Shown: positions 3,561 to 22,507 of the stretch, in pieces
Position numbering within the stretch: the stretch's first letter is position 1
Layout: each line of letters begins with the position of its first letter
Source of the DNA: an uncultured Sphingomonas sp.
GTDB lineage: Bacteria > Pseudomonadota > Alphaproteobacteria > Sphingomonadales > Sphingomonadaceae
DNA length: 42,152 nucleotides
Direction: 5' to 3'
Assembly: GCA_913775025.1 (NCBI GenBank)
Contig: CAJYJW010000220.1
Location: forward strand, 1 to 42,152
Made by a program: the position numbers and the translations under genes
The notes under the pieces: model-generated
Seen by the model: the letters and a program-made list of their open reading frames with translations, nothing else
Databases searched by the model: none
Told to the model about the DNA's origin: nothing

Positions 3561-4247
3561 TCAGACGCGATGGAGCCGTTCGCTATCCGCCGCGTCGAGT
3601 GCGGCCGACAGCGCCGCCCGCGAGCCGAACTGGAAGCCGATCTGCGAGGCATAGCATTCGCACATTTCCGCTTTGTCGGCCCGATCTTCTTCGCTCAGCA
3701 CATGGCGGCGAACCGGTTGCGCCACCGGGCGTCGATCCACCCGCGCGACGTAGGGCCAATCCTCCCACAGCAGCACGTCCGGTTTGGCCGCAAGCAGGGC
3801 GTCGCGCACCAGCCAATGATCGACATGATCGCCGATCGCCAGCGGCCCCAGCACAACATCGGCCGCGCTATCCTCCAACGCGTCGCGGAGGGCGGCGGCG
3901 AGCGCGGGCAGGATGCCATCCCCGGCATGGCGGCCGGCGAACAGAGCCGGTGCGCTGTCATACCCACGATGCGGCGCTTCCGGCAGCGGCAGGTGGATCG
4001 CCCGCGCGCCGATCACCGCGCAGGCGGCATCATCCTCCGCCCGGCGCAGCGCCATATAATCCACCTCCGGCCCGAGCCCCTTGTCCAGCTGGCAGGCGAG
4101 CGCGAAACCTGCCGGGTCGGGCATGGTGGCCGTGAAGCAGGTCACGATCGTCACCCGCCCGCCGCCGCGCGCATGGGCCGCCAGCATCCCGCCGATCGAG
4201 AAAGCCGCGTCGTCCAGATGGGGGGATACGGCGAGGATGTGGCTCAC
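3561..4247 (-). CDS. PIG-L/LmbE family deacetylase
   Basis: GTG start overlapping the GT4 stop (GTGA); VSHILAVSPHLDDAAFSIGGMLAAHARGGG and GDHVDHWLVRDALL match the PIG-L Zn-binding motifs. Confidence 0.9.
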   Translation of the reverse strand: MSHILAVSPHLDDAAFSIGGMLAAHARGGGRVTIVTCFTATMPDPAGFALACQLDKGLGPEVDYMALRRAEDDAACAVIGARAIHLPLPEAPHRGYDSAPALFAGRHAGDGILPALAAALRDALEDSAADVVLGPLAIGDHVDHWLVRDALLAAKPDVLLWEDWPYVARVDRRPVAQPVRRHVLSEEDRADKAEMCECYASQIGFQFGSRAALSAALDAADSERLHRV

Positions 4248-5452
4248 AGCAGATGCGGCTCGGCCCGGAAGCGGCATGGCGCGATCGGGATATGCGGATC
4301 GATCCCGGTTGCGGGCGCAGTGTCGCGGATCGCCTCGTAGATGCCCATGATCTGTGCGCCCACCGCATGCCAGCTATAGACGCGACGGCATTCCTCCAGC
4401 GCCGCCGCCGCCAGCCGATCGCGTAATGCCGCATCGGTGACGAGGCGGGTGAGCGCGGCGGCCTGCGCGGGAATGTCGCCCGCCTCCACCAGCAGACCGT
4501 TCTCGCCGTCGCGAATGCAATCCACCACGCCGACCGAGCGGCAGGAGAGGACCGCATGGCGGCAGGCCATCGCCTCCAGGATCGTGTTCGAAAAGCCTTC
4601 GGCATAGGTGGGGGAGACGAACACGTCGTGCTCGCGATACAATTCCGGCACGCGATCATAATCGGCATAGCCGGTGAAGGTCACGCGATCGCCCAGCCCC
4701 AGTTCGGCGCAAAGGGCCTGGGCGGGGCGGAAATCCGGGCCGATGCCGGAAACGGTGCAGCGCCAGTCCCCTTCGACGGCGGGCAAGGCGTGCAGCATGT
4801 CCAGCACGCCTTTTCGCCGATCGACGCGGCCGTGGTAGAACAGCCGCACCGGCCCGCCGGCATGACCCGCGCCGGGGACGAACCGTTCCGTATCCACGGC
4901 ACCCGGCACGATCGTGAACCGGTCCATCGGCGTGCCGAGGCGATCATGTACCTCGCCCGCGAAGCTCGTGCCGCCGATCAGCAGCGCGCCGGCATTGTCC
5001 AGCACACGCTCCATCGCGATGCGGTGCGTGTCGCAGCAGGAGCCGACCCAATGCCCGTCGCCGCCCTGAATCGAGACGACGCACGGCACCCCCAGCCGCT
5101 GCGCCGCCAGCAGGGTCGCCCAGCCGGTGGGGTAGCCATATTGAGCGTGCAGCACATCGAAGGGCGCGCGGGCATGTTCAGCCTCGATGGTAGCGATCAT
5201 CGCCGCCACGTCCGCCTCGAAATCGCCGCCGGCCTGCTCGCCCAGCGCCTCCAGTCCGATCACGCGTACGCCCGGCACCGGCGGGGGCGGGCCGCCGCCA
5301 TAAACCTTGGCGCGTTCGGGATCGCCGTAATATTGGCTCACCATCGTCACGTCATGCCCGCCCGCGACGAGCTGGCGCAGCAGGTTGATCGCATAGATCG
5401 ACATGCCGGAGATCGCGGGAAAGAAGCGGCGCGAAACGAAGCAGATCCTCAT
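4244..5452 (-). CDS. Glycosyltransferase family 4 protein
   Basis: MRICFVSRRFFPAISGMSIYAINLLRQLVAGGHDVTMVSQ; C-terminal domain LFYHGRVDRRKGVLDML and VSPTYAEGFSNTILEAMACRHAVL (EX7E motif). ATG overlaps the preceding stop (ATGA). Confidence 0.93.
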   Translation of the reverse strand: MRICFVSRRFFPAISGMSIYAINLLRQLVAGGHDVTMVSQYYGDPERAKVYGGGPPPPVPGVRVIGLEALGEQAGGDFEADVAAMIATIEAEHARAPFDVLHAQYGYPTGWATLLAAQRLGVPCVVSIQGGDGHWVGSCCDTHRIAMERVLDNAGALLIGGTSFAGEVHDRLGTPMDRFTIVPGAVDTERFVPGAGHAGGPVRLFYHGRVDRRKGVLDMLHALPAVEGDWRCTVSGIGPDFRPAQALCAELGLGDRVTFTGYADYDRVPELYREHDVFVSPTYAEGFSNTILEAMACRHAVLSCRSVGVVDCIRDGENGLLVEAGDIPAQAAALTRLVTDAALRDRLAAAALEECRRVYSWHAVGAQIMGIYEAIRDTAPATGIDPHIPIAPCRFRAEPHLL

Positions 5453-6279
5453 GCGGCGATCCCCCGCAGATAGGCGATGGCTTCCGGTATGGCGGCATGG
5501 GCGCGCGGGCTTTCCCGCGACAGTTCGACGCAGACGAGGCGGGAGAAGCCGATGGCGTTCAGCGCGGCCAGCACGGCGGGCACGTCCATGTCGCCCTGCC
5601 CGAATGGCAGATGGGTGTGATCGCCACGGCGCATGTCCTCCACCGCGACGGTGCCGATCCGCGCGGCATAGGCGCGGATCGCCTCGGCGGGGTCGATATC
5701 CTGGGTGACGAGGCAGTGGCCCGTATCCAGCGCCAGCCGCAGCCTGGGATGGCGGCGGGCGAGCGCGGCATAATCGGCAACCGTCTCGATCAGCATCCCC
5801 GGCTCCGGTTCGAAGCTGGCGTCCACGCCGCATGCTTCGGCATGGTCGAGGACGCGGGCCAGCCCCTCGTTCAGCCAGCGCAGCGCAGTGGCACGATCGA
5901 CCCCCGGCCTGGGCACGCCCGCCCAGAAGGAGATCGTTTCGCTCCCCAGCCGCCGCGCGACATCGAGCGCGCGACACAGGAAGGCGACACGGCGGGCGCG
6001 GGCCTCGCCATCGGGGTTGATGAGGGTCGGCTCATGCTTTTCACGCGGATCGAGCAGATAGCGCGCGCCCGTCTCGATCACGCTGGCGAGGCCCAGCCGG
6101 TCGAGCAGCGTAGCGACGCGATCCGCCTCGCGCTCCCAATCGTCGGCGAACGGATCGAGGTGATGATGGTCGAGCGTCAGCGCCACGCCATCATAGCCCG
6201 CGTCCGCGATCAGATGCAGCGCATCGTCCAGCCGGTGGTTGGCCGCGCCGTTGGTGTTGTAGGCGTAGCGCAATGTCAC
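5449..6279 (-). CDS. Sugar phosphate isomerase/epimerase family (TIM-barrel) protein
   Basis: 276 aa; AYDGVALTLDHHH-type beta-1, ASFEPEPGMLIETVADY, RLALDTGHCLVTQDIDP, GTVAVEDMRRGDHTHLPFGQGDMDVPAVLAAL. ATGA overlap with the YcaO stop. Confidence 0.88.
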   Translation of the reverse strand: MTLRYAYNTNGAANHRLDDALHLIADAGYDGVALTLDHHHLDPFADDWEREADRVATLLDRLGLASVIETGARYLLDPREKHEPTLINPDGEARARRVAFLCRALDVARRLGSETISFWAGVPRPGVDRATALRWLNEGLARVLDHAEACGVDASFEPEPGMLIETVADYAALARRHPRLRLALDTGHCLVTQDIDPAEAIRAYAARIGTVAVEDMRRGDHTHLPFGQGDMDVPAVLAALNAIGFSRLVCVELSRESPRAHAAIPEAIAYLRGIAA

Positions 6280-7763
6280 GCGGGCATCCCGCCGACGTGA
6301 TGCGCCTCCGGCTCGCGGTAGAGCGGATAAAGCGGGCCGACCAGCCGATCCGCCGCCGCCGTGTCGAACAGCGGCTCGTTCAGCCGGGCGCTGTCTTCGG
6401 GCGTCAGCCGGATGCGGCGCAGCGAAGCGCCCTCCCCGTCGCCGAAGCGGATCAGGGGGGAGTTCATCGCCAGCAGCTTCTCGGTATTGCGCGCGCCGAT
6501 GCGATAGTAGCTCATCGTCTCCACCTCCATCCCCGGCACGATCACCTTGACGACGCTGACCGCGCGGTCGGCGGGCGACATGTCGACGTACAGGATGTCG
6601 AACCCCGCCGCCTCCACCGCCTCGCGCGCCACCGCCGCGCGGGCGTGGCCATCGGGCGCGGGGCGGCTGGGCAGCGCGTCGAAGCGGCGGGTGCCGCGTT
6701 CGGACAGCACGTTATCGGCCAGCCAGCCGCGCAGGGTCGCGGCATCGCGGCGCGTCCAGTCACGCATGGCGTCAAAGGCGCGGCCGTCGCTCGATTTCGC
6801 CGCCCCGCCCGCCTGGGCGAGGAAGCGCGCGACATAGCCTTCGGGCGCGACCTGCGCGACGAGATCGGCCGGGCCGTGGGCGAAGGCCTTGCGCGCGCGG
6901 CTGGCGGCGAATTCGGTGAGGCACTTGTCGAGCGCGGCGGCGCGATCCGAATGGCACGCCTCGCCGCAGGCCGTCACCATGATCGGCGTGGCGGGCGCGG
7001 CGGCTTCATCCACGCCGACGCAATAGAGGTTGGGCAGGCCATATTGATCGGTCGCAAACTTGGGGATCGCGCGGATGCCGGCGGCGTCGAACCGATCGAG
7101 GATCGCGCGCGTGGAGGCCGGCAGATCGTTGCCGAGATCGAGAGTGACGCCGCGATCGAGCGCGCGGAACAGCAGGCCGTTGCCGTCGCGTTGCAAAATC
7201 TCGCACAGGCCATGGCCGATCGCCCAGTCGAGATCCGGCCCCGCCCCCATGCCGTTCGAGATGATCGTCGTGAACGGCTTGTAGCCGGGCGTCAGCTCCT
7301 TGGCGGAATAGGCCGCAAGATCGATCGGCACGAGCACGGTGGAGCCGTCCGCCCAGCGCCGCGCCTCCACCCATTCCAGTACCGTATCGCGCCCGACCGG
7401 CGATCCGGCGGGCAGGCAGAGCGTGAGCGGATCGGCGACCGAGCGGGCGCCCAACGTGCGGGCAAGCTCGGCATAGCTGCCGCGCGTCTTGGCGCGCGCG
7501 CCCAGCGTCAGCGTCGGCCACACCATCTCGGCGATCTCGCCCAGGCCGCCCAGCACCGCCGCCTCGTCCGTCGCGCCATAGCCGACGCCGTAGGGCATGA
7601 TGCCGGCAAGCGCCTCGTCCTCCGGGAACAGCGCCACAACCCACACCGGCAGGCCGAGACGGTCGAGCGGGTGTATCGGGAACGCCACCACGTCGCCCTT
7701 GGGGAAGGCATCGAGGTAGGCGTGGGCAGCCGCCCCCAGCCCTTGCGGCAGGCCGGACCTCAC
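6276..7763 (-). CDS. YcaO-like family protein
   Basis: GTG start overlapping the MBL stop. HPLDRLGLPVWVVALFPE, MPYGVGYGATDEAAVLGGLGEIAE, AIGHGLCEILQRDGNGLLFRA, TACGEACHSDRAAALDKCLTEFAASRARKAF and VVKVIVPGMEVETMSYYRIGARN occur in YcaO order. Confidence 0.88.
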   Translation of the reverse strand: MRSGLPQGLGAAAHAYLDAFPKGDVVAFPIHPLDRLGLPVWVVALFPEDEALAGIMPYGVGYGATDEAAVLGGLGEIAEMVWPTLTLGARAKTRGSYAELARTLGARSVADPLTLCLPAGSPVGRDTVLEWVEARRWADGSTVLVPIDLAAYSAKELTPGYKPFTTIISNGMGAGPDLDWAIGHGLCEILQRDGNGLLFRALDRGVTLDLGNDLPASTRAILDRFDAAGIRAIPKFATDQYGLPNLYCVGVDEAAAPATPIMVTACGEACHSDRAAALDKCLTEFAASRARKAFAHGPADLVAQVAPEGYVARFLAQAGGAAKSSDGRAFDAMRDWTRRDAATLRGWLADNVLSERGTRRFDALPSRPAPDGHARAAVAREAVEAAGFDILYVDMSPADRAVSVVKVIVPGMEVETMSYYRIGARNTEKLLAMNSPLIRFGDGEGASLRRIRLTPEDSARLNEPLFDTAAADRLVGPLYPLYREPEAHHVGGMPA

Positions 7764-8575
7764 AGCGCGATCCTCTTCACGCCGGGCGCGCGGGTGAGGC
7801 CCTCGTCCAGCGTGGCGAGCGCCACCGCACGGTTCACCTCGGGCGCATATTCGAAGGGGGTCAGCACCGCATCGAAATCGAGCGGGGCGATGACGTCGCG
7901 GTAACCGCGCAGTTCGGCGTGGGTCAGCGGAATATCCTTGTGAAAGGCCTTGTGGCTGGAAATGGCGTGACTGCGGCCGTCGGCATCCTGATCGACCTTG
8001 AACATGTCGCCGCAAAACAATCGCCGCCCGGGCGCGTCGTGCAGCACCGCCTGCCCCTCATAATGGCCGCCGACGTGGTGCAGCGTATAGCCGGGCGCGA
8101 GGTCGAGCGTGTCGTCGTAGGGCGCGGTGACGCGGAACGCCTTGGTCATGCTCAGGTCGTCGCGCTGGATCGCCACCACGGCGGGCTCGAATTCGCGCTG
8201 GAGCTGGAACAGCGCGCCATATCCATGCGCGTGGCTGGCCGCGAGAAACGATATGCCACCAAGCGCCGCGATCTTATCCAGCATCGCAACGGAGTAATAA
8301 GGTGCTGCCTCGAACGCGATATTGCCGCCGTCGCGCACGATCAGCCAGCCGGTGCCGGCAAGGCCCAGCGCGGGGCGCGTGGTGAATGCCCAGAGGCCGG
8401 GCGCTACTTCCCGTGCATCGCCCTCATGCGTCGCGGCGACCTCCGCCTCGGGCAGGAAGCGCCAGCCGTCTTCGGGCAAATCGTTGCGGACATCGGTGCA
8501 GACCGGGCAGTCCGGCGGCGCGAAATGGCGCTGCCAGAAACCGCAATTGGCGCAGGCGAACCATGTCAAAGGCAT
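7760..8575 (-). CDS. MBL-fold metallo-hydrolase with N-terminal CxxC-x(n)-CxxC (rubredoxin/zinc-ribbon-like) segment
   Basis: N-terminal FACANCGFWQRHFAPPDCPVC; MBL-like AASHAHGYGALFQLQ, HHVGGHYEGQAVLHDAPGRRLFCGDMFKV. Confidence 0.82.
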   Translation of the reverse strand: MPLTWFACANCGFWQRHFAPPDCPVCTDVRNDLPEDGWRFLPEAEVAATHEGDAREVAPGLWAFTTRPALGLAGTGWLIVRDGGNIAFEAAPYYSVAMLDKIAALGGISFLAASHAHGYGALFQLQREFEPAVVAIQRDDLSMTKAFRVTAPYDDTLDLAPGYTLHHVGGHYEGQAVLHDAPGRRLFCGDMFKVDQDADGRSHAISSHKAFHKDIPLTHAELRGYRDVIAPLDFDAVLTPFEYAPEVNRAVALATLDEGLTRAPGVKRIAL

Positions 8576-9561
8576 GAGCGGGCATCCCGATAGGCGCGGT
8601 CGAACAGCCGCATCAGCGCCAGATCGCGCGCCATGGAGAAATCATGCGCCTCCCCCCGCGCCGCCGCCATGAACGCCGCCGCTTGGGCGGTGAAAGGCGA
8701 GGTTTCGCCGTCGAAGGCGATCGGCGCGTCGTGGCCGGTCGTCGCGCAGCGGCGGGCAAGCGTGCCGCCCGCCGTCTGCCCCATCGTATCGGTGGCGATC
8801 AGCAGACCGCGCTCGCCCAGCACCTCAAGCCGGCGGCGAGGCAGCACCTCGGCGCAATTGTAGGCGACATGGCTCTGGAACAGCACGCCGGATGCGGAGC
8901 GTCCTGTCAGCATCCCGCCATCGTCCACCGGATAGGCGTGGATGCGGCGCTGAAGCGTGATCGACAGGTCGGCCAGCGGTTCGCCCAGCAACCGCTCGGA
9001 CAGATCGAGGCCGTGGAGGGCGAGGTCGATCACGGCGCCGCCGCCCGCGCGCGCCGGGTCGGCGCGCCAATTGTCGTGCGCCGCCCCGTTCGGCGACCAG
9101 GCGGGATCGACCCAGCAGGCATAGACGATCCGCACCGCCACCGGGCGGCCGATCTCGCCGCCGGCGATCGCCTCGGCCATCGCCCGGTGGGCGGGGTGGT
9201 GGCGCTGATCGAAGGCGGTGCCGTAGAGCGCCCCGCCCGATACCGCCTCCGCCATCGCTTCGGCCTGATCGAGCGTGGCGGCAATCGGTTTCTCGCACAG
9301 CACCGGCACGCCAGCCGCCGCCGCCGCGCGGACCGGTGCCAGATGCGCATCGTTCGGCGTGGCGACGTACAGCAGATCGCAGGCGCCGGCGTTCAGCATC
9401 GCCTCCACGCTGTCGAACGCCGCGATCCCTGCCGCATCGGCCTGCATGCGCGACGTGGGGGACGGATCGGCGATGGCCGCCACGGTGCCGCCCGAGGCGC
9501 GGATGGCGGGGGCCATATAATCACGCGCGACCCAGCCGTAGCCGGCGATGCCCCAGCGCAT
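8566..9561 (-). CDS. Gfo/Idh/MocA family oxidoreductase
   Basis: MRWGIAGYGWVARDYMAPAI (Rossmann), VATPNDAHLAPVRAAAAAGVPVLCEKPIAATLDQAEAM (CEKP motif). Start choice 9561 or 9567; 9561 gives a TGATG overlap. Confidence 0.94.
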   Translation of the reverse strand: MRWGIAGYGWVARDYMAPAIRASGGTVAAIADPSPTSRMQADAAGIAAFDSVEAMLNAGACDLLYVATPNDAHLAPVRAAAAAGVPVLCEKPIAATLDQAEAMAEAVSGGALYGTAFDQRHHPAHRAMAEAIAGGEIGRPVAVRIVYACWVDPAWSPNGAAHDNWRADPARAGGGAVIDLALHGLDLSERLLGEPLADLSITLQRRIHAYPVDDGGMLTGRSASGVLFQSHVAYNCAEVLPRRRLEVLGERGLLIATDTMGQTAGGTLARRCATTGHDAPIAFDGETSPFTAQAAAFMAAARGEAHDFSMARDLALMRLFDRAYRDARSCL

Positions 9562-10670
9562 CACCATCGTTCCGGCAGGTCGACAGTGCGGCGCAGGCGC
9601 GCGTCGGATACGGCGCCCGTCGCCTCGCGCGGCAAGGCCCAGAGGCAGCCGTCGCCATATTCGTCGCGATAGCGGGGCGAAGGCCAGATCGCGCCGTCCT
9701 CCCCCAGCAGCGGGTTGGGCCGCAGCGTTGCACTCTTAAGCGGCATGGCCAGGCCCCGCGATACGATATGCGGTGGTGCCCCGCGCCCCTCCACAAGCGA
9801 CCATGCCTCGATCCGGGGATCGTCGTGAAAGGAAGTAACGGTCGGGGCGACCTCGTCAATCAGCGCGTCGAACAGCGCGCGTTCGTCGTGCACCTGCGCA
9901 TCCGGAAACAGCGCGGCCCATTCGCCAGCGGTGCGTGCAGGGCCCTTCGCGCCGCCCTCCACGCCTGCGTTGTGCAGGTGGCTGATCGCCAGCACGCCGC
10001 CTGGCGCGGTCGCGGCGCGCAGGCGGGCGGCGACCTGCGCTTGACCGGGCAGGAAATAGAAGGCGTCGTGGCACATCACCAGATCGAAGCGATCGCCCGC
10101 GATCGGCCATCCGGCGGCGGCATCGAAAACCACATAGTCGGCGTCCGGCGCGACCCAGTTCTTCGCCAGCCAGCATTTGGCGAACACCACGTCCGCCCCC
10201 GTGCAAGAGACGCCGCGCCGGCCAAGCTCGCGCAGATAATGGCCGATGCCGCACGCCAGCTCGAACGCGCTGGCGGGCTCACTCCAATGCGCCTCCAGCA
10301 AAGCGAGCCCGGCGAGATAGGTCGGGTCGCTCCAGCGGTAGGCGAAATAATCGGCGACCGGCCCCAGCCGCAGCAACGCCATCGCCTCGCGCAGCGAAAG
10401 CGTGTCCCGCTCCCGCACCAGCCGCTTGAGTTCGGTCAGGTCGGTCGCGGGGCCGGTCCACCACGCATCCTGGTCGGTGAGCAGCGCGACGAGCGCGTCA
10501 TCCGGGCAGCCGGCGTCGAGATGATCGAGCGCGACCGCAACGAGCCCTTCGCTCTCCGTCCGCAGATAGGGGATGCCGTCGATCACCGGCCACCGCTCCC
10601 CCGGGGCGGCGAGCGAATGCGGCGTGTCCGCCACCAGTAGCCGGCCGGTCAGCGGAGACCGCAACGTCAT
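9561..10670 (-). CDS. Class I SAM-dependent methyltransferase with N-terminal Trm112-like segment
   Basis: MTLRSPLTGRLLVADTPHSLAAPGERWPVIDGIPYLR then FELACGIGHYLRELGRRGVSCTGADVV (motif I) and FDLVMCHDAFYFLPGQAQVAARLRAATAPGGVLAISHLHN. ATGA overlap with the upstream gene. Confidence 0.88.
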   Translation of the reverse strand: MTLRSPLTGRLLVADTPHSLAAPGERWPVIDGIPYLRTESEGLVAVALDHLDAGCPDDALVALLTDQDAWWTGPATDLTELKRLVRERDTLSLREAMALLRLGPVADYFAYRWSDPTYLAGLALLEAHWSEPASAFELACGIGHYLRELGRRGVSCTGADVVFAKCWLAKNWVAPDADYVVFDAAAGWPIAGDRFDLVMCHDAFYFLPGQAQVAARLRAATAPGGVLAISHLHNAGVEGGAKGPARTAGEWAALFPDAQVHDERALFDALIDEVAPTVTSFHDDPRIEAWSLVEGRGAPPHIVSRGLAMPLKSATLRPNPLLGEDGAIWPSPRYRDEYGDGCLWALPREATGAVSDARLRRTVDLPERW

Positions 10671-11605
10671 GCCAGCCCGGCGTCGGCGAGAATGCGGTCG
10701 TGGAACGCCTTGACCGGACCGTCGTGGACCAGCCCGTAATCGTCGAGCACGATCCCCATCGTCAGGCGGGCGGCGCGGGTGTGCTGCTCGATCTCCAGCA
10801 CGCGATCGATCACGTCGCCGGTGTGGAAGGCACGCGCCTCCGCCGTCTCGTCCCCACCGATCGGGGCCAGCGCGGCATCGAGGCGCGCGGTGAGCGCGGG
10901 GTTCATTGCGGTCACCTCGGCCATGCTGAGGCGACGCGCCTCTTCGATCACGGGGGCCAGCCAATCGCCCAGCAGCATCTCGCCCGAATAGCCGCTGTCC
11001 GGCATGTCCGCGCTGTGCAGGTGATGCGCCATGCCGGCGAGGAACACCTCCACCGGGTCCGCGCCGTGCCAGCCGCAGGCAAGCACACCATATACCGCAA
11101 CGATCAGGCAATGCTCGGCGTGGTTTTCGGCCGGTTGCAGCATGATGCGCGGCTGGCCGGGGCAGGTCACCCCCGCGCGCGGCTGCCGCGCCAGCTTGTC
11201 GACGAAGGCAGGCACCGCCCCCGCCGCCGGCCGGCCGAGCGGCAAGGCCGCGCGCAGCCGGGCGGCAAGCGCGGGATCGAGCGTGTCGGCCACCTCATCG
11301 AACGCGCGCTCCAGCACCGCGACCGCGCCTTTGCCCGCGCCCAGCGCCGTCAGCGTCGCCAGATCGAGATCGCCCAGCCGCGCCGAGACGATCGCCGAGG
11401 CGACCACCTGCGCCATCACCGTCTCCGGCGCATCCCCGCGCGCCAGCGCCGCCCAGCCGAGCACGAACAGCCGCTCCGCAATCGACCCCGCCCCTTGCGC
11501 CGAATATACCCGCTTCAGATCCCCCAGCTCGCGCAGGAACGGGAGCGCCGCCGGCGAAAGGCCGGCGGCCGCGGTGGCGATTTCGGACGGGGCCGCCGGG
11601 GTCAC
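10667..11605 (-). CDS. HD-domain-like protein of unknown function (312 aa)
   Basis: GTG start overlapping the inositol-3-phosphate synthase stop (GTGA). Helical; PAENHAEHCLIVAVYGVLACGWHGADPVEVFLAGMAHHLHSADMPDSGYSGEMLLGDWL resembles an HD superfamily metal-binding core with HH in place of HD. Confidence 0.6.
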   Translation of the reverse strand: MTPAAPSEIATAAAGLSPAALPFLRELGDLKRVYSAQGAGSIAERLFVLGWAALARGDAPETVMAQVVASAIVSARLGDLDLATLTALGAGKGAVAVLERAFDEVADTLDPALAARLRAALPLGRPAAGAVPAFVDKLARQPRAGVTCPGQPRIMLQPAENHAEHCLIVAVYGVLACGWHGADPVEVFLAGMAHHLHSADMPDSGYSGEMLLGDWLAPVIEEARRLSMAEVTAMNPALTARLDAALAPIGGDETAEARAFHTGDVIDRVLEIEQHTRAARLTMGIVLDDYGLVHDGPVKAFHDRILADAGLA

Positions 11606-12780
11606 GCGCGCTTGCCGCCCAGCCACGTATCCAGGATTAGCTGCTGCTCGGGGAAGCTGTGCACAGGCTCGCCGCCCTTCGTTTGCGGCAGCTTGAAGAA
11701 CAGGCCCATCTGCTCCTGCACACCGCCCTCGCCGCGCTGCTTGGCCAGATCGAGGCACCGCGCGATCTCGATCGCGAGCGGCGCGGCCAGGATCGAGTCC
11801 TTGCACAGGAAGTTCAGCTTGAGCTGCATCTTCTGGCCCATAAAGCCGGTGAGATCGATATTGTCCCACGCTTCCTTGTCGTCGCCACGCGGGCGGTAAT
11901 AATGGATCATCACGATATGATCCTCCACCGGATAGCCGAGGATCGAGTTCAGCACGCTGCCCTTGGTGCCGAGCTTCGACTGCAGCGACTTCGGATCGTC
12001 GAGCGCGAGCCCGTCCGAATTGCCGAGGATGTTGGTGGAGAACCAGCCGTCCACATGCAGCGCGCGATCGCGCAGCGCGGGCGCGATCACGGTCTTCATG
12101 AACGTCTGCCCGGTCTTGCCGTCCTTGCCGGCCACGGGCACGTTCCGCTCCGCCGCGAAATCCGCCAGCGGCGCGATGTCCGCCGCCACGGAAGGCGTGA
12201 AGTTGGCGTAGGGCGTGTCCGCGTCGATCGCCGCATAGGCATAGAGCATCGCCGGGCTGATCGCGGCATCGTCCTCGTCCAGCCCGCGCTCGAACGCCTC
12301 GCGCGATCGCAGCGCCGCGTCGCCGGCGTTCGGCACCCGCTCGGTGGAGGCGAGGTTGACGACGACGACGCGATCGAGCGACTTTTCCTCGCGGAAGCGG
12401 CGCAGATCGTCCTGAATCTGCTTCACCACGCCGCGATGGCCGCCCTCCAGCTTGTTGCTGCCGTCGATGTTGGCGCAATAGCCGGTGCTGCCGGCCGCCT
12501 TCCACGGCCGCATGTCGTTCAGCGCCGCGGCGCCGTCGGCCAATTCCGCCTTGCCGATCACGCCATGGCGCAGCGCGCAATCGCCCAGCGTATCGCCGGT
12601 CAGATCCCAGCCGCCGAACACGATGTCGCGATAGGGCACCATGCCCGCCACGTCACGATCGGCCAGCGGCAGCCCATCGAGGCTGTTGGAGCCCGCCTTG
12701 ATCATCTCGATCCCGGCGATGGCGGTGGTGGCGACCGCCCCGCCCACGCCCACGATCGCCACGCCCAGCCGTTCCGCCAT
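11602..12780 (-). CDS. ino1: Inositol-3-phosphate synthase (MIPS)
   Basis: 392 aa; LGVAIVGVGGAVATTAIAGIEM, DIVFGGWDLTGDTL, GSTGYCANIDGSNKLEGGH, SVAADIAPLADFAAERNVPVAGKDGKTGQTFMKTVIAPAL, STNILGNSDGLALDDPKSLQSKLGTKGSVLN are diagnostic. Confidence 0.95.
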   Translation of the reverse strand: MAERLGVAIVGVGGAVATTAIAGIEMIKAGSNSLDGLPLADRDVAGMVPYRDIVFGGWDLTGDTLGDCALRHGVIGKAELADGAAALNDMRPWKAAGSTGYCANIDGSNKLEGGHRGVVKQIQDDLRRFREEKSLDRVVVVNLASTERVPNAGDAALRSREAFERGLDEDDAAISPAMLYAYAAIDADTPYANFTPSVAADIAPLADFAAERNVPVAGKDGKTGQTFMKTVIAPALRDRALHVDGWFSTNILGNSDGLALDDPKSLQSKLGTKGSVLNSILGYPVEDHIVMIHYYRPRGDDKEAWDNIDLTGFMGQKMQLKLNFLCKDSILAAPLAIEIARCLDLAKQRGEGGVQEQMGLFFKLPQTKGGEPVHSFPEQQLILDTWLGGKRA

Positions 12781-12890: not shown

Positions 12891-13673
12891 TTACATATGT
12901 GCGCGCTCTGGCGCGGGCGAATGATCCACATCATCCGGCGTGCCGGTCGGCGGCAGCCAGTCGGTGGCGATCTCGCCATGACGATCGGTGAAGTCGACCA
13001 TCGCCGCCAGCCGATCGACATCGTTGATGCGGATGATCCTGCCGGTACGCTCGACCAGTCCGGTCTCCGTCAACGCCTTCAACGATCGACTGACGTGCGT
13101 TTTCGTCAATCCCACCGCATCGCCCAGATCCTGCTGCGTCAGCGGTAGCTCGAAGCTGGAGCCGTTCAGCCCGTCCACCACTCGCAGCCGGGCCCGGATA
13201 TCGAGCAGCAACGTGGCGATACGGGTGAAACCGTCCGTCCGCCCGACCGAGGTCAGCCGTTCCGCCATGGAAACCTGTTCCGAAGCGCCCACCGCATAGA
13301 GCAGTGCCCCCAGCCGGGGGTGGCTACGGAACAACCGCCCGAAGGCGGGCTTCGGTATCTCCAGCAAGGTGGCGTTGCTGACGGCGCGCAACGTCGCCGC
13401 GCTATACCCCCAAGCGATCGAGAAGGTCGTCGTGATGTCACCGACGAAGTAAAAGCGCAGGATCTGTCGCCCACCGTCCTTCAGCCGCACCGATCCATGT
13501 AACCAGCCGCTGGCGACGACATAGAGCTTGTCGATCTCCGCCCCTTCCTCGACCACGATATCGCCGGCGCGAAAGGCGCGCTCACGCCGTTCCAGCCGGC
13601 GCAGCGCATCCCGTTCCGCATAGGTGAGGGCGAGGTGGCGCGAGAGGCGGGTTTCCAGCGGGCTGTCATGCAT
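12891..13673 (-). CDS. Crp/Fnr family transcriptional regulator
   Basis: cNMP-like domain (RAGDIVVEEGAEIDKLYVVASGWLHGSVRLKDGGRQILRFYFVGDIT) and C-terminal HTH LTQQDLGDAVGLTKTHVSRSLKALTETGLVER. Confidence 0.94.
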   Translation of the reverse strand: MHDSPLETRLSRHLALTYAERDALRRLERRERAFRAGDIVVEEGAEIDKLYVVASGWLHGSVRLKDGGRQILRFYFVGDITTTFSIAWGYSAATLRAVSNATLLEIPKPAFGRLFRSHPRLGALLYAVGASEQVSMAERLTSVGRTDGFTRIATLLLDIRARLRVVDGLNGSSFELPLTQQDLGDAVGLTKTHVSRSLKALTETGLVERTGRIIRINDVDRLAAMVDFTDRHGEIATDWLPPTGTPDDVDHSPAPERAHM

Positions 13674-15508: not shown

Positions 15509-16903
15509 TCAGCGCGCTTGCCGCGCGGTGTCGGGCGCGCCTGTCGACCAGCCGCCGCCCATCGCCTGATAAAGGGCGACATAGCTGGCCAGCTGGTCCG
15601 CCTGCGTCTGCACGCGCGTCAGTTCAGCGCTCAGCAGGTTCCGTTGTGCATCAAGCTGCTCGATATAACCGGAATAGCCCGCGCGATAGCGGTTGGTGGC
15701 GTTCTGCAGCGCGCCGCGCGCGGCGTTCGCCTGATCGGCCAGATCGCGCGCCTGCTCGCCCGTCCGCCGCACCGAGACCAGCGCGTCGTCCACCTCGCGG
15801 AAGGCGACCAGCGCGGCGCGGCGATAGGCGAAGGCCGCCTGATCGCGTCGCGCGGTCGCCGCCGCCGCCTGCGCGCGCAACCGCCCGCCGTCGAAGATAG
15901 GCGCGAGGATGCTCGCCCCCAGCGAGAAGACCGCAACCGGATCGGCCAGCGCCGTGGAGAGCACCAGCCCCGCCGATCCGGTCAGCGACAGATTCGGCAG
16001 GAAGGCGGCGCGCTGGCTGTCGAGCGACAGATCGGCGGCGACCAGCGTCTGTTCCGCCTGATAGAGATCCGGTCGGCGGCGGAGGAGATCGGCGGGCAGG
16101 CCGGCAGGGATCGCGGGCGTGGCAAGCCGATCGAGCGGCAGCCCGCGCGGGATCGGCCCCGGCGCATCACCTACCAGCAGCGACAGCGCATTCTCCTGCC
16201 GGGCGATGGCCAGTTCGGCGGCGGGCACCAGTTGCGCGGTGGCGCTATATTCCGCCTGCGCCTGGCGATATTCAAGGCGCGACGAATAGCCCGTCTCATA
16301 CCGGCGGCGGGCGATCCGCAGGGCATCGCTGCGCGCGGACAGCGTATCGCGCGCGATCCGCAGCCGTTGGTCGAGCGCGCGCAAGGTGATGTAGCCGCTC
16401 GCGGCGGTGGAGGCGGTGGCGAGGCGCACCGTATCGCGTGCGGCCTGGCTCGCCAGCAATTGCGCGCGCGCCGCGCGGCTGGCGAGGCGCAGGCGGCCGA
16501 ACAGATCGAGATCGAAGCTGGCGGTGATCCCCGGCTGCGCCCCGAACGCGCGCGAGGGCGTACCGAACGGGCTCAGCGTCTGCCCCTGCGTCTCGGGCAA
16601 CGTGCCGCCGACCTGCGGCAGCAATTGCGCGCGCGCCAGCGCCTCGGCCGCGCGCGCCTCTTCCACCCGCGCGGCGGCGATGGCGACATCGACGTTGCCG
16701 ATCAGCGCCCGCCGCACCAGCGACGCAAGCGCGGGATCGCCGAACGCCGCCCACCAGTCCGCCGTCACGGGCCCGCCCGGGCCGAGTGCGGTGCGCCACG
16801 CGGGCGGCGGCGCGACCGCCGCGGCGGCGGGCGCGGGCTGCCGTTCGCCACGCGAAACGCAGCCGGCCAGCGCCAGCGCGATCAGCGGCAACGCCCGCCT
16901 CAT
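15509..16903 (-). CDS. RND/MFS efflux outer membrane lipoprotein, NodT/TolC family
   Basis: Lipobox-like LALAGCVSRG; DWWAAFGDPALASLV; RRPDLYQAEQTLVAADLSLDSQRAAFLPNLSLTGSAG. Confidence 0.94.
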   Translation of the reverse strand: MRRALPLIALALAGCVSRGERQPAPAAAAVAPPPAWRTALGPGGPVTADWWAAFGDPALASLVRRALIGNVDVAIAAARVEEARAAEALARAQLLPQVGGTLPETQGQTLSPFGTPSRAFGAQPGITASFDLDLFGRLRLASRAARAQLLASQAARDTVRLATASTAASGYITLRALDQRLRIARDTLSARSDALRIARRRYETGYSSRLEYRQAQAEYSATAQLVPAAELAIARQENALSLLVGDAPGPIPRGLPLDRLATPAIPAGLPADLLRRRPDLYQAEQTLVAADLSLDSQRAAFLPNLSLTGSAGLVLSTALADPVAVFSLGASILAPIFDGGRLRAQAAAATARRDQAAFAYRRAALVAFREVDDALVSVRRTGEQARDLADQANAARGALQNATNRYRAGYSGYIEQLDAQRNLLSAELTRVQTQADQLASYVALYQAMGGGWSTGAPDTARQAR

Positions 16904-18042
16904 CGCGCAGCCGTATCCACCCGCGCCACCACCGACATGCCCGGCCGCAGCCGCGCCGCCAGCCGCTGGCCCGGATCGATACGGATCCGCACCGCGATAC
17001 GTTGAGGCACCTTGGTGAAATTGCCGGTGGCGTTATCGGCCTTCAACACCGCGAATTCACTGCCGGCGGCGGGCGAGATGCGTTCCACCCGTCCGGTCAG
17101 CCGCGCGCCGGCCAGCGCATCCACCGTGAAGCTGGCCGGCTGGCCGATCGCGATGCGCGCGGTCTGCGCCTCCTTATAGTTTGCGATCACCCACACCTCC
17201 GGCGGCACGAGGAACAGCAGTTGCGAGCCAGCGGTGACATATTGGCCGACACGCACCCCCACCTCGCTAAGCTGCCCCGCCTCCGGCGCGCGGATCACCG
17301 TATTGGCGAGGTCGATCTGCGCGAGGCGGAGCGCTGCCTCCGCCCCGGAAACGCCCGCCTGCTGGCCGCCACGACCGACCTCGACGGTGCGGATATCCTG
17401 CCGGGCGATCTCCCGCGCGGCCTCCGCCTGGGAGACGCCCGCCTGCGCCTGCCGAAGCGCGGCGCGCGTCTGGTCCCGTTCGCGCAGCGACACCGATCCA
17501 TCGGAGACGAGATCCTCGACACGGGCGAGATCGGCCTGCGCGCGCATCAGTTGGGCGCGCGCATTCTCCACGGCCGCCTCCTGCGCCTGCAGGCTCGCCG
17601 CGCGGCTGGCTGCCTGCTGCCGGCTGTTGGCCAGCGTCGCCCCCTGCGCCGCCACCTGCGCCTGCGCCTGCGCGACACGTTGCGCATAGATTCGCGAATC
17701 GATCGTTACGAGCGGCTGGCCGACCGCGACAGTGGCGAAATCGCGCACCAGCACTTGCGTGACATAGCCTGACACCTGCGGCGCGATCACCGTCACGCGG
17801 CCGCGTACATAGGCGTTGTCCGTCCCCTCGCGCGCGGTGGCGAACGGCCCGATGCGCCATGCCGCCATCACCGCCGCCACGCCTGCCAGCGCCAGCACCG
17901 CGATGGCGATCACCACCCCGCGCGACAAGGCAGGCGGCCGCCAGCCGGACCCTGCCGGCGGTGTGGGCGCGGCCGGTGTCGTCTCGGCTAGCCTCTCCTC
18001 CGTGGGCGGGGCGGGGGCTACGGGATCGCGAACATCGGTCAT
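16900..18042 (-). CDS. HlyD/EmrA family periplasmic adaptor
   Basis: TM anchor, then DNAYVRGRVTVIAPQVSGYVTQVLVRDFATVAVGQPLVTID and LANTVIRAPEAGQLSEVGVRVGQYVTAGSQLLFLVPPEVWVIANYKEAQ. Confidence 0.94.
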   Translation of the reverse strand: MTDVRDPVAPAPPTEERLAETTPAAPTPPAGSGWRPPALSRGVVIAIAVLALAGVAAVMAAWRIGPFATAREGTDNAYVRGRVTVIAPQVSGYVTQVLVRDFATVAVGQPLVTIDSRIYAQRVAQAQAQVAAQGATLANSRQQAASRAASLQAQEAAVENARAQLMRAQADLARVEDLVSDGSVSLRERDQTRAALRQAQAGVSQAEAAREIARQDIRTVEVGRGGQQAGVSGAEAALRLAQIDLANTVIRAPEAGQLSEVGVRVGQYVTAGSQLLFLVPPEVWVIANYKEAQTARIAIGQPASFTVDALAGARLTGRVERISPAAGSEFAVLKADNATGNFTKVPQRIAVRIRIDPGQRLAARLRPGMSVVARVDTAAR

Positions 18043-19691
18043 GCCGTTCCTTCCCGTCGCGCGCGGACCATCCGCCGGATCAGCAGGAAGGCCAGATAGG
18101 CGAAGGTCATCGCTGCAAGCAATGCGACCAAGCGGAACATGTCGTCATAGGCGAGGATGTTCGCCTCGCGCGTGGCGGTTCGCGCCAGCAGCGCGCCGCC
18201 CTCCGCCGCGCGGAGCCCCGCATCCCCCACGACGCGGCCCACGCCCGCCGCCCCGGCCTGCAACCGCGCCTGCACGATCGGATCGGTCGGGTCGATCGCC
18301 TGTACCAGAGCGGCGCTGTTCGCCTTCTCCCGCACCACCTGATAGGTGCCGAGGATCGCCGAGCCCGCCAGGCCGCCCAGCGAATTGATGATGCCGAACA
18401 GCGCGATGAAGCTGATGAGGTGGCCGGTGCCCGCCTTCAACGCACGCGTCATGCCGAACAACAGCGCCGGCCCGAGGAAGAACGTGCCGGCGAAGGCGAT
18501 CAGCGCCTGCGTGACATAGAGTTGCGGCGCGCGGGTAAGGCTGGTCGCGCGGGAATCAAGAAAGGCCGCCACCGCGACGAGGCCTACCGCCAGCATCACC
18601 GGATGCGTCAGTTTCTCGACGTTCAGCGTCGCCGCGCTGAGCAGCACGCCCGCCAGCGATGCGACGGCGATGATCGTGAAGAAGAGCTGTAATTCATCGT
18701 TGTTCTGGCCCAGCAACGTCAGCAGGCCGACCGCGCCGAACGTCTGTTCGGACAGCACGATGCGCGCCATCAGCGTGACCACCGTGAAGCGGAGGATATC
18801 GGCGCTTGCCAGCCAGCGTGTATTGAGCAGCGGGTTTTCCCGCCCATGCTCGATCAACAGCGCCGCCGCCAGCATCGGGATCGCGGCGATCAGCGCCCAG
18901 CCGATCCACCCTGCCTGCGTCCACCACACGATCCGGCCGAGCCCAAGAACCGCCGCAAATAGCGCTACGCTGCCGGCGAACAGCGTGAAGGTGACGAAGT
19001 CGAGCGGCTCGAACGCCTTCCGCCGCACTGTCGGCGGCAGACGGAAGGCGAGGACGGCCGCCAGGCTGAGCGATGCCAGCCCCAGCTCGAACAGATACAG
19101 CGCCTGCCACTGGCTCATCGCCAGCAGATCGGGCGAGAACAGCCGGGCGAGCGGGGTGGCGCATTGCGGCACTCCGATCCCCACTATCACCGCGCGCAAC
19201 CGCGCCTGCGCCGGTACCGTCTGCATGATATAATAGAGCCCGAACGTACTGAGCGGCGCCGCCGCCAGGCCGCTTGCCGCGCGCACCAGGATCGCGGAGG
19301 AGAAATCGTTGACGAACAAGTGCGCCAGCGCGAGCACGGCATAGAGGCCGAGGAAGATCATCGCGAAGGGGCGCAGGCCGAACTGCTGGCGAAACTTGAT
19401 GAGCAACAGGTTGGCGCTCACGTTCGTCATCACATAGGCGGTCGGCAGCCAGGCCACCTCCGCCGGATCGAGGCCGAGCGAACCCGCCAGCGTGGTGGTG
19501 TTCACCGCGACCAGCGCGTTGCCGAACCCACCGGTCAGCCCCAGCAGCACCCCGACTATGGCATAGGCCAGCTTGCGCGAGGGGGGGTGCGCGGGCGATC
19601 CCGGCGAGCCGGGCATCGTCGGCGCCTCATGGGGCGCATAGGTCCAGTCTTCTTCCGCGAAGAAGCGTCGGATGCGGGTAATCATCGGCAT
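18039..19691 (-). CDS. MFS transporter, EmrB/DHA2-type
   Basis: Start chosen at 19691 or 19685 (MPMITRIRR), ORF open further upstream. FGNALVAVNTTTLAGSLGLDPAEVAWLPTAYVMTNVSANLLLIKFRQQFGLR; many TM helices; ATGA overlap with the adaptor gene. Confidence 0.9.
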   Translation of the reverse strand: MPMITRIRRFFAEEDWTYAPHEAPTMPGSPGSPAHPPSRKLAYAIVGVLLGLTGGFGNALVAVNTTTLAGSLGLDPAEVAWLPTAYVMTNVSANLLLIKFRQQFGLRPFAMIFLGLYAVLALAHLFVNDFSSAILVRAASGLAAAPLSTFGLYYIMQTVPAQARLRAVIVGIGVPQCATPLARLFSPDLLAMSQWQALYLFELGLASLSLAAVLAFRLPPTVRRKAFEPLDFVTFTLFAGSVALFAAVLGLGRIVWWTQAGWIGWALIAAIPMLAAALLIEHGRENPLLNTRWLASADILRFTVVTLMARIVLSEQTFGAVGLLTLLGQNNDELQLFFTIIAVASLAGVLLSAATLNVEKLTHPVMLAVGLVAVAAFLDSRATSLTRAPQLYVTQALIAFAGTFFLGPALLFGMTRALKAGTGHLISFIALFGIINSLGGLAGSAILGTYQVVREKANSAALVQAIDPTDPIVQARLQAGAAGVGRVVGDAGLRAAEGGALLARTATREANILAYDDMFRLVALLAAMTFAYLAFLLIRRMVRARREGTA

Positions 19692-19964
19692 GATCGGTGC
19701 AGGCGAGCCGCCGCCGCCTCGCCTATTTCGGATGATCGGCACGAGCGCCGACCTGCATCCAGAAGGGGGCTGCGCAATGTCATGCCATGCATATGGGGAT
19801 ATCGGCCGGCATATGCGCCATCTCCGTTTCGTTGTGGCCGTACTACTATACGGGAACATTCATGGCCACGTTCCGTGCCGCAGGCGCGATGCGGCCTTGC
19901 CGTAGCGGCAGGGGTACAGCGGCGCAAAGGCGGAACGCCTGTCGGCGCAATCGGTTAGACGACC

Positions 19965-20729
19965 ATGCTCGCGTCGATCGCCCCGCCCGCACCGCCAGGT
20001 GATCTGCCCCCCATGGCGCTCACGGGCAAAAGCCTGTTCTTCGATTTCGACGGCACGCTGGTCGATCTTGCCGATACGCCTGACGCGGTGATCGTCGATA
20101 CCGCATTGATCCAACTGCTGGAGCGGCTGTCTGCCCGCGCGCCGGGGCGGATCGCGATCATCAGCGGCCGGTCGATCGATCAGCTGGACGGGATGCTGGG
20201 TGCGTTCGCCGCCGGCGTCGCGATCGCCGGCAGCCATGGCGCGGATCTGCGCATCCCCGGTATCCCCCATCTGCCGGCGACACCGCCCGCGATGCTGGCG
20301 GAAGCAGCCGCCACGCTGCGCCCCTTCGCGGAAACGCACGGCCTGTTGCTGGAGAGCAAGAGCCATGGCGTCGCCTTGCATTACCGCCTTGCCCCCGCGA
20401 TGGAGCCGGCGGCGATCGCCAGGGCGGAAGAGATTGCGGCGAGTACCGGCCTTACTTTGCAGCGCGGCAAGATGATGGTGGAGTTGCGTGCGCCCGGCGA
20501 CAAAGGGCGGGCGATACGCTTGTTGCTTGCGACGCCGGCGATGGCGAATACCACCCCATTCTTTTTCGGCGACGATGTGACCGACGAGCCGGGCTTCGCC
20601 GCGGCGGCCGCCGCCCACGGCGCGGGCATACTGATCGGCGAGACGCGGGCGAGCGCAGCGACCTACCACCTCCCCGATGTCGCCTCGCTCCGCGCCTGGA
20701 TGGCCGCCACGCTGGAGATTGCTGAATGA
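19965..20729 (+). CDS. otsB: Trehalose-6-phosphate phosphatase
   Basis: KSLFFDFDGTLVDLADTPD (HAD motif I), RIAIISGRSIDQLDGML, FFFGDDVTDEPGFAAAAAAHGAGILIG. True start may be 20013. Confidence 0.93.
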   Translation: MLASIAPPAPPGDLPPMALTGKSLFFDFDGTLVDLADTPDAVIVDTALIQLLERLSARAPGRIAIISGRSIDQLDGMLGAFAAGVAIAGSHGADLRIPGIPHLPATPPAMLAEAAATLRPFAETHGLLLESKSHGVALHYRLAPAMEPAAIARAEEIAASTGLTLQRGKMMVELRAPGDKGRAIRLLLATPAMANTTPFFFGDDVTDEPGFAAAAAAHGAGILIGETRASAATYHLPDVASLRAWMAATLEIAE

Positions 20730-22507
20730 CCGCCACGATGGATCTCTGGCCGATCGGCAATTGTCAGGTCTCTGCGCTTATCGATGCGCGCGGGCGTTTC
20801 GTTTGGGGATGCGTGCCGCGCGTCGACGGCGACCCGGCCTTCTCTGCGCTGCTCGATACCGCCGACCCCGAAACCGGCTATTGGACGATCGAGCTGGAGG
20901 GTGGCACGCGGACAACGCAGGCCTATATCCGGAATACGCCCATCCTCGTCACGCGGCATGAGGATGATGCAGGCAACGCGGTGGAAATCACTGATTTCTG
21001 CCCCCGTTTCATGCGGCATGGCCGCGCCTATCGGCCGACTGCCTTCGCGCGGATGGTGACGCCCGTCGCCGGGTCGCCACGTATCCGCGTCGTGCTGCGC
21101 GTCTCGACTGATTGGGGCAGGCCAACCGAGATAACCTATGGGTCCAACCATATCCGCTTCCTGATGCGTGAGCAGACGCTGCGCCTGACGACCGACGCGC
21201 CGATCGATCGCCTGCGCGGCGAGCGCTGGTTTCGCGTCGAGCGGCCGCTCCACTTCTTCCTTGGGCCGGATGAGAGTTTTTCCGGCAATCTCGATTCGAC
21301 CGTCGCCACGATGCTGCGCTGCACAATAGATGAGTGGCGGGGGTGGGTGCGCGGTCTGGCGACGCCGCCTGAATGGCAGGAGGTGGTGATCCGGGCCGCG
21401 ATCACCCTGAAGCTGTGTCAGCATGAGGAGACCGGCGCGATCGTCGCCGCCCTCACGACCTCGCTGCCTGAGCATGAGGGGTCGGAGCGTAATTGGGACT
21501 ATCGCTACTGCTGGATCCGTGATGCCTATTATACGGTGCAGGCGCTGAACCGGCTTGGCGCGCTAGATGTCTTGGAAGGTTATCTCGAATATCTCCGCAA
21601 TATCGTGGACGATGCGCGGGGCGGGCATATCCAGCCGCTCTATGGCGTCGCGGGGGAGGCGATGCTGGTCGAGCGTATCGCGCCTGATCTTCCCGGCTAT
21701 CGTGGCATGGGGCCGGTCCGTGTCGGCAACCAGGCCTATGAACAGGTGCAGCACGACGCCTATGGCCAGATCGTCCTGTCCAACGTCCAGGCGTTTTTCG
21801 ATCAACGGCTAATGCGCATGGCGGGGGTGGAAGATTTCCACGCGCTGGAGCGAGTCGGCGAACTGGCGTGGCAGGTCTACGACAAGCCCGATGCCGGCCT
21901 GTGGGAGCTGCGCACCAAGGCGCATGTCCATACCTATTCGGCGGCGATGTGCTGGGCGGCCTGCGATCGACTGGCGAATGCCGCCGCCACGCTCGGGCTG
22001 TCGGATCGCCGCGCCTTCTGGGCGGATCGCGCGGCCACGATGCGAAATACCATCGAGACGAAGGCATGGCGCGCCGATACTCGGCGTATCTCGGCGACAT
22101 TCGGCGGAGACGATCTGGACGCGAGCCTGATCCAGCTCCTCGATCTACGCTTTTTCTCTCCAGATGATCCACGCTTCCGGGGCACGTTGACTGCTGTCGA
22201 GGAGGGCTTGCGCCGCGGCAGCTATATGCTGCGCTATGCGACGGAGGATGATTTCGGCCTGCCGCATACCGCCTTCAACGTCTGCACCTTCTGGCTGATC
22301 GAGGCGCTCCATGCGACCGGCAATGGAAGTGAGGCACGGGTGCTCTTCGAGGAAATGGTCGCGCGCCGCACCCCCGCCGGCCTCCTCAGCGAGGATATTG
22401 ATCCCAATACCGGCGAACTGTGGGGCAATTACCCGCAGACCTATTCGCTTGTTGGCCTCATCAACTGCGCCGTCCTGTTGAGCGCGCCGTGGAACAGCAT
22501 CCGATGA
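20726..22507 (+). CDS. Glycoside hydrolase family 15 protein
   Basis: 593 aa; MDLWPIGNCQVSALIDARGRFVWGCVPRVDGDPAFSALL, RNWDYRYCWIRDAYYTVQALNRLG, GNYPQTYSLVGLINCAVLLS. Confidence 0.93.
   Translation: MTATMDLWPIGNCQVSALIDARGRFVWGCVPRVDGDPAFSALLDTADPETGYWTIELEGGTRTTQAYIRNTPILVTRHEDDAGNAVEITDFCPRFMRHGRAYRPTAFARMVTPVAGSPRIRVVLRVSTDWGRPTEITYGSNHIRFLMREQTLRLTTDAPIDRLRGERWFRVERPLHFFLGPDESFSGNLDSTVATMLRCTIDEWRGWVRGLATPPEWQEVVIRAAITLKLCQHEETGAIVAALTTSLPEHEGSERNWDYRYCWIRDAYYTVQALNRLGALDVLEGYLEYLRNIVDDARGGHIQPLYGVAGEAMLVERIAPDLPGYRGMGPVRVGNQAYEQVQHDAYGQIVLSNVQAFFDQRLMRMAGVEDFHALERVGELAWQVYDKPDAGLWELRTKAHVHTYSAAMCWAACDRLANAAATLGLSDRRAFWADRAATMRNTIETKAWRADTRRISATFGGDDLDASLIQLLDLRFFSPDDPRFRGTLTAVEEGLRRGSYMLRYATEDDFGLPHTAFNVCTFWLIEALHATGNGSEARVLFEEMVARRTPAGLLSEDIDPNTGELWGNYPQTYSLVGLINCAVLLSAPWNSIR

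Follow-up and report, generated by a model that had tools for sequence, protein, structure and literature searches.

A YcaO protein encoded in a conserved nine-gene operon with cyclitol and sugar enzymes is probably a small-molecule tailoring enzyme and not a RiPP maturase

All the characterised YcaO proteins known to us act on a peptide or a protein, and we know of none that acts on a non-peptide substrate. MJ1094 and the other TfuA-type YcaOs are responsible for the thioamidation of a glycine of McrA. The YcaO described here resembles MJ1094 (PDB entries 6peu and 6pe3) in its fold, its ExxE and NG motifs, a VPxMEV-type strand and the lack of a fused E1-like domain, however the two proteins are about 20% identical, the active site has Q for E and K for R, a C-terminal extension of ~60 residues carries the sequence LYPLYREP, and the genome has no TfuA. 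With the azoline- and amidine-forming YcaOs of RiPP pathways (LynD, TruD, McbD and the bottromycin type) it shares the YcaO domain and the expected ATP-dependent activation of a carbonyl, but it has no precursor, no E1-like partner, either fused or adjacent, and no PxPxP tail. EcYcaO, the E. coli protein, thioamidates uL16 (PMC13063428). Like the protein described here it lies outside a RiPP cluster with no short ORF nearby; the two differ in that they fall in separate clades and that the present YcaO is shorter and is encoded in a biosynthetic operon.

The YcaO gene was found in a window of 42,152 nucleotides, the whole stretch of DNA that was analysed, from an uncultured Sphingomonas sp. It is the sixth of nine genes on the minus strand that abut or overlap, with gaps of 110 bp before ino1 and 46 bp after the PIG-L gene; the original prediction had given these gap sizes and the lack of space within the operon correctly. 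The nine genes and their upstream neighbour are as follows.

12891-13673, minus strand: Crp/Fnr-type regulator upstream of ino1, family assigned by eye from the translation
11602-12780, minus strand: gene 1, ino1, myo-inositol-phosphate synthase, 392 aa (PF07994 7.5e-53, PF01658 5.9e-33)
10667-11605, minus strand: gene 2, HD-like all-alpha protein, 312 aa (AlphaFold2 pLDDT 91)
9561-10667, minus strand: gene 3, SAM-dependent methyltransferase, 368 aa (PF08241 1e-9)
8566-9567, minus strand: gene 4, Gfo/Idh/MocA sugar or cyclitol dehydrogenase, 333 aa (PF01408 2.2e-22)
7760-8575, minus strand: gene 5, Zn-ribbon and metallo-beta-lactamase (MBL)-like protein, 271 aa (no Pfam match)
6276-7763, minus strand: gene 6, YcaO protein, 495 aa, GTG start (PF02624 8.3e-50)
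5449-6279, minus strand: gene 7, TIM-barrel sugar isomerase/epimerase/dehydratase (AP_endonuc_2), 276 aa (PF01261 4.8e-42)
4244-5452, minus strand: gene 8, GT4 glycosyltransferase, 402 aa (PF00534 2.1e-32)
3561-4247, minus strand: gene 9, PIG-L family N-deacetylase, 228 aa (PF02585 9.3e-14)

A genome-wide search gave one YcaO and one ino1, both inside the nine-gene operon, and the top PDB match of the latter was inositol-3-phosphate synthase (7nwr, 2.9e-78). The window had been described as free of TfuA and of ThiF/E1-like genes. The absence of TfuA extends to the whole genome, where a profile search with PF07812 gave no match, and the ThiF-family matches were confined to other contigs, with none on the cluster contig. 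The Crp/Fnr-type gene is a possible regulator of the operon. It adjoins the cluster in five of the seven Sphingomonas loci compared, and a Crp/Fnr gene is also found near the Hymenobacter cluster; the neighbour was not common to the other lineages in an ORF comparison of 26 loci from seven lineages. An EmrA/EmrB/outer-membrane-factor-like efflux set lies near the cluster (15509-19859, minus strand), and at 19965-23895 on the plus strand a glycoside-hydrolase-15-like gene lies between the trehalose genes otsB and otsA, both sets being named by eye from translations. No RNA families were found in the window.

The YcaO motifs quoted in the original prediction were all present in the 495-residue ORF, and the Pfam search, the structural model and the fold search agreed. 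The match to PF02624 spanned residues 61-413 with a score of 170 bits against a cut-off of 25.7, and the Pfam search revealed a single-domain protein with no fused E1-like/ThiF domain. The AlphaFold2 model had a pLDDT of 92.8. When it was compared with the PDB using Foldseek, MJ1094 (6peu) was ranked first with a TM of up to 0.79 by target, followed by LynD, MusD, the Methanopyrus YcaO and others, and all 41 matches at E < 0.001 were YcaO-domain proteins. The gene at 7763-6276 (minus strand) is a genuine YcaO. Its active site and C-terminus contain the following stretches.

7527-7538, minus strand: residues E76-E79, the first ExxE, putative ATP/Mg ligands, unchanged throughout the family and also conserved in the alignment with the outgroup
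7179-7202, minus strand: residues 188-195, EILQRDGN, in which Q191 replaces Glu
6924-6968, minus strand: residues 266-280, the CGE loop and K280, with E268 for a small residue and Lys for Arg
6309-6332, minus strand: residues 478-485, the C-terminal LYPLYREP, standing where PxPxP would be

We take the active-site columns examined to be the ATP- and Mg-binding positions of the published E. coli YcaO structure. Residue 191 was Gln in 40 of 40 family members and Glu in 25 of 25 other YcaOs compared, so that ExxER becomes ExxQRDGN. The Arg four residues ahead of the next conserved Glu is replaced by Lys (K280), and the CGEA loop of the family contains an extra Glu (E268). Because the pattern of Q191, K280 and E268 is fixed across the family, it speaks for an active site that is altered but functional and not for a dead one. 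The PxPxP tail was absent as had been claimed; LYPLYREP, which the original prediction overlooked, was invariant in 31 of 31 aligned members and was also present in seven more actinobacterial members.

A tree of 65 YcaOs, 40 of them family members, placed the family in one clade with a branch support of 100/99 and a branch length of 2.15. Outside this clade were the E. coli ycaO clade, recognised via the synteny of one locus (L089) with E. coli, a clade of long, fused LynD-type proteins, and a group containing MJ1094 and a TfuA-linked YcaO (L074, with its TfuA named by eye). The YcaO of the window therefore falls outside the RiPP-fused, TfuA-linked and E. coli/uL16 clades, in agreement with the original prediction. 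Several of the outgroup branches are long, that of the E. coli clade measuring 4.4 changes per site, and the nearest relative of the family is therefore unsure. The tree bears on the suggestion that this YcaO modifies a housekeeping protein, by thioamidation like that of uL16 by E. coli YcaO or of McrA by the MJ1094 type. MJ1094 is the closest solved relative, and structured proteins are the substrates of some YcaOs that are not part of RiPP clusters (PMC13063428). The tree places the YcaO far from the E. coli clade, however, and a housekeeping target would leave unexplained the strict linkage to eight cyclitol/sugar enzymes, the plasmid carriage and the patchy distribution, so that we regard such a target as very unlikely.

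A single scan across species genomes yielded 45 loci, and in nearly all the complete loci gene order and strand were the same for all nine genes, neighbours overlapping by a few bases. The full order was found in Sphingomonadaceae, Erythrobacter, a Rhodospirillales MAG, a Hyphomicrobiales MAG, Streptomyces, Roseomonas and another actinobacterial order, and in Actinomycetospora the first six genes were in order before the contig ended. The identity of the YcaO to the window copy was up to 89% in Sphingomonas and 41-43% in Streptomyces. Dozens of genomes have the YcaO and its partners in this one order, which excludes chance. In Methylobacterium, so named because one member of the genus and M. 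bullatum share 94.8% DNA identity across 18.9 kb, the YcaO was present in 117 of 119 genomes (98% of those tested). Among the Sphingomonadales nine of 301 genomes matched, seven of them, including that of the window, with a full-length family member; the remaining matches were a YcaO in two pieces (genome G276) and a distant YcaO only (G238). In the other actinobacterial order the YcaO was found in 10 of 40 genomes, and most of the carriers examined had the full or nearly full cluster. Plasmids carried all nine genes in Roseomonas haemaphysalidis and eight of the nine in Methylobacterium aquaticum, M. bullatum and Hymenobacter volaticus, a bacteroidete from air whose cluster has no methyltransferase gene. 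A search of phages gave no copy of this YcaO. The plasmid carriage together with the spread over three phyla suggests that the module moved horizontally as one unit.

Several loci depart from the common arrangement. The Methylobacterium clusters (L066-L070, L112 and L113) have no Zn-ribbon/MBL gene between the dehydrogenase and the YcaO, and the methyltransferase gene is absent from L110, the Hymenobacter volaticus plasmid, and from L123 (G1005). The Gfo dehydrogenase of the Hymenobacter volaticus cluster is annotated as two overlapping ORFs. Apparently decaying copies were seen at L035, L052 and L079, in the form of a broken YcaO frame in a Sphingomonas, an in-frame stop (G264) and division of the YcaO into two ORFs (G276). 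After the cluster on the Roseomonas plasmid come mdoH and two spore-photoproduct-lyase-family genes (L111:14206-17877).

The overlaps between the operon genes leave no internal room for a precursor gene, and the flanks were compared across lineages. When ORFs of at least 30 aa from 26 loci in seven lineages were examined, none beyond the nine genes was common to four or more lineages; three were common to three lineages, each in a handful of loci. Short ORFs of 18-120 codons, sought up to 800 bp from the cluster on each side, gave scattered short matches only and no conserved ORF, the best matches near the cluster being 6 to 43 residues long and at unrelated positions. Nothing in the flanks of seven Streptomyces strains was conserved in half of the strains, and the gap where the MBL gene is missing in Methylobacterium contained overlapping frames only, with no evident conservation. 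The statement in the original prediction that no precursor could be recognised is thus extended by the lack of any conserved short ORF co-varying with the cluster. Because no flanking gene or short ORF is common across lineages, a precursor peptide travelling with the cluster is very unlikely. A RiPP maturase with its precursor encoded elsewhere in the genome would fit the fact that YcaOs act mostly on peptides, and both ORF comparisons would miss a precursor that is very short or divergent. We nevertheless hold this to be highly improbable: the contig encodes neither an E1-like nor a TfuA partner, no conserved ORF accompanies the cluster in several lineages, plasmid-borne copies included, and transfer by plasmid and across phyla would part the enzyme from its precursor. 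A distant precursor would need to accompany the cluster from phylum to phylum and onto plasmids.

The partner proteins have family-level matches, and residues that we take from family knowledge to be catalytic were invariant over three phyla. In the Gfo dehydrogenase these are E92-K93-P94 and H185; the protein is IolG-like, yet far under the cut-off, with 1,5-anhydrofructose reductase as a PDB match at 3.7e-38. The TIM enzyme gave weak matches to L-ribulose 3-epimerase and IolE and has invariant E157, D185, H221 and E252. In the MBL-like protein C8, C11, C23, C26, H115, H117, H171, D190 and H208 are invariant, and its Roseomonas counterpart is annotated as an MBL fold metallo-hydrolase. The PIG-L protein had the Dbv21 deacetylase as its top PDB match (3.3e-18) and invariant H10, D12, D13, H141 and H144. 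The HD-like protein (10667-11605) gave no match in Pfam or NCBIfam; Foldseek returned HDDC2 with a probability of 1.0 and a TM of 0.57-0.61 by target, but with an E of about 0.2. Its residues H165, H194, H195, D203 and D264 are invariant across the lineages compared, and we propose that it may be a cyclitol-phosphate phosphohydrolase. The HD motif of this family reads HH (H194 H195) in all lineages compared. An assignment of gene 2 to an Ebo-type operon, suggested by a resemblance, was rejected, with no Pfam or NCBIfam match and a fold search that led to HD-domain proteins. None of the nine proteins reached an NCBIfam equivalog cut-off, with Gfo, TIM, GT4 and PIG-L far below, and the exact substrates are therefore not readable from sequence.

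The GT4 enzyme is MshA/BshA-like but under the cut-offs for both, scoring 86 bits against 462 with the MshA model, and its E285 and E293 are invariant. This likeness brings in the mycothiol pathway, with which the cluster has three steps in common: Ino1, an MshA-like GT4 and an MshB/BshB-like PIG-L deacetylase. The product could on these grounds be a redox cofactor like mycothiol or bacillithiol, with a glucosaminyl-cyclitol made by these three enzymes and the YcaO either serving as an ATP-dependent amide ligase or introducing sulfur to give a thioamide or thiol carrier, and near-universality in one genus does suggest a general role. The cluster relatives do not reach the MshA and MshB equivalog cut-offs, however, no MshC-, MshD- or BshC-like gene is among the nine, and the cluster adds Gfo, TIM, methyltransferase, MBL and YcaO proteins that set it apart from mycothiol synthesis. 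The genome lacks TfuA, and Streptomyces, which are mycothiol producers, carry the cluster too. A redox cofactor is accordingly considered unlikely.

In one actinobacterial order, YcaOs that are members of the clade were found without the eight partners nearby, at L128:5514-15598 (G1081) and L137:7971-14829 (G1136). The gene order in both is aldo/keto reductase, solute-binding protein, two permeases, YcaO and a polysaccharide-deacetylase-like gene, the solute-binding protein and permeases being of the sugar-type ABC-uptake kind. In a third genome (G1113, L138:1-2559) the contig begins at the YcaO and the deacetylase is next. No HD-like gene was found anywhere in G1081. G1136 has a second, contig-cut YcaO adjoining the same deacetylase (L139). 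Both contexts of the YcaO therefore combine an oxidoreductase, a deacetylase and sugar-type functions, with no peptide in either. As the solo YcaOs adjoin a sugar-type ABC importer and a deacetylase, a small-molecule substrate is favoured, and the partner-free context is the best evidence, the operon aside, for a substrate that would be carbohydrate-like. The original prediction had offered as the substrate either a small molecule or an amide on the inositol glycoside scaffold, or else a peptide or protein encoded at a distance; the first half of this proposal is favoured by these contexts and the second is disfavoured, and its interpretation as a whole is supported.

We consider it probable, from the gene content and its conservation, that the YcaO serves as a tailoring enzyme in a self-contained pathway to a small molecule, activating with ATP a carbonyl of an inositol/amino-sugar metabolite. 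Ino1 would supply an inositol phosphate from which the HD-like protein would remove the phosphate. GT4 would attach an N-acetylamino sugar, deacetylation by PIG-L would bare the amine, and oxidation of the ring and its isomerisation or dehydration by the Gfo dehydrogenase and TIM enzyme would give a keto or enone cyclitol, with the methyltransferase capping an oxygen. The YcaO would then use ATP to phosphorylate the carbonyl or enol oxygen of a non-peptide, which could be an amide or a vinylogous amide or acid; attack by a nitrogen nucleophile would oust the phosphate and give an amidine, enaminone or imine. We infer this order of reactions from the family names of the proteins. Because no TfuA is present the incorporation of sulfur is less likely, and the product may vary because Methylobacterium has no MBL gene and Hymenobacter no methyltransferase. 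Counting against this assignment, the changes of E to Q and R to K could mean a different use of ATP by the YcaO. In the searchable literature, outside which most subscription journals lie, no relevant paper was found that joined YcaO with inositol-phosphate synthase or with Methylobacterium, and the product of the pathway looks undescribed.

As a special case of the small-molecule pathway, the product may be a polar sunscreen that absorbs UVA and is chemically akin to the mycosporine-like amino acids. An inosose would be dehydrated to a cyclohexenone and O-methylated as in 4-deoxygadusol, and the YcaO, replacing the ATP-grasp and ligase enzymes, would convert a vinylogous acid or amide to an enaminone or imine chromophore. 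The likeness to the mycosporine-like amino acid pathway is one of proposed logic only (cyclitol, methyltransferase and ATP-dependent exchange of C-O for C-N), and the nine proteins differ from it in having no EVS/DDGS cyclase or ATP-grasp ligase domain. Among 200 isolates studied by Yoshida and colleagues, all the UVA absorbers reportedly belonged to Methylobacterium, and the compound is said to be highly polar. The cluster is near-universal in this genus (117/119) and rare in Sphingomonadales (7/301 full-length), its carriers include leaf, lichen and air isolates, and in Roseomonas it is close to spore-photoproduct-lyase genes. The literature records compounds that absorb UVA in Methylobacterium of the phyllosphere (Yoshida et al. 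2017, through its citation in passages of PMC12573535 and PMC8561711). Against this, leaf-dwelling genera have many genes in common, and Hymenobacter and L123 have no methyltransferase. The sunscreen is thus a tentative proposal that we would not call likely, and its identity with the polar UVA absorber reported from Methylobacterium is speculative. Equally doubtful, though conceivable, is the more specific claim that this is the first non-peptide YcaO, swapping O for N to give a UVA-absorbing cyclohexenimine-type or amidine product, which in Methylobacterium and further bacteria exposed to the sun would be a sunscreen of independent evolutionary origin from mycosporine-like amino acids.

Should the substrate indeed be a non-peptide, the YcaO would be the first such member known to us. 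The amide-activation chemistry of the family would then extend to small molecules, and a new enzyme for amidines or enaminones would be available. Methylobacterium is among the commonest of leaf bacteria, and with the YcaO in 98% of its tested genomes, an undescribed metabolite that is probably widespread can now be sought in a tractable laboratory organism.
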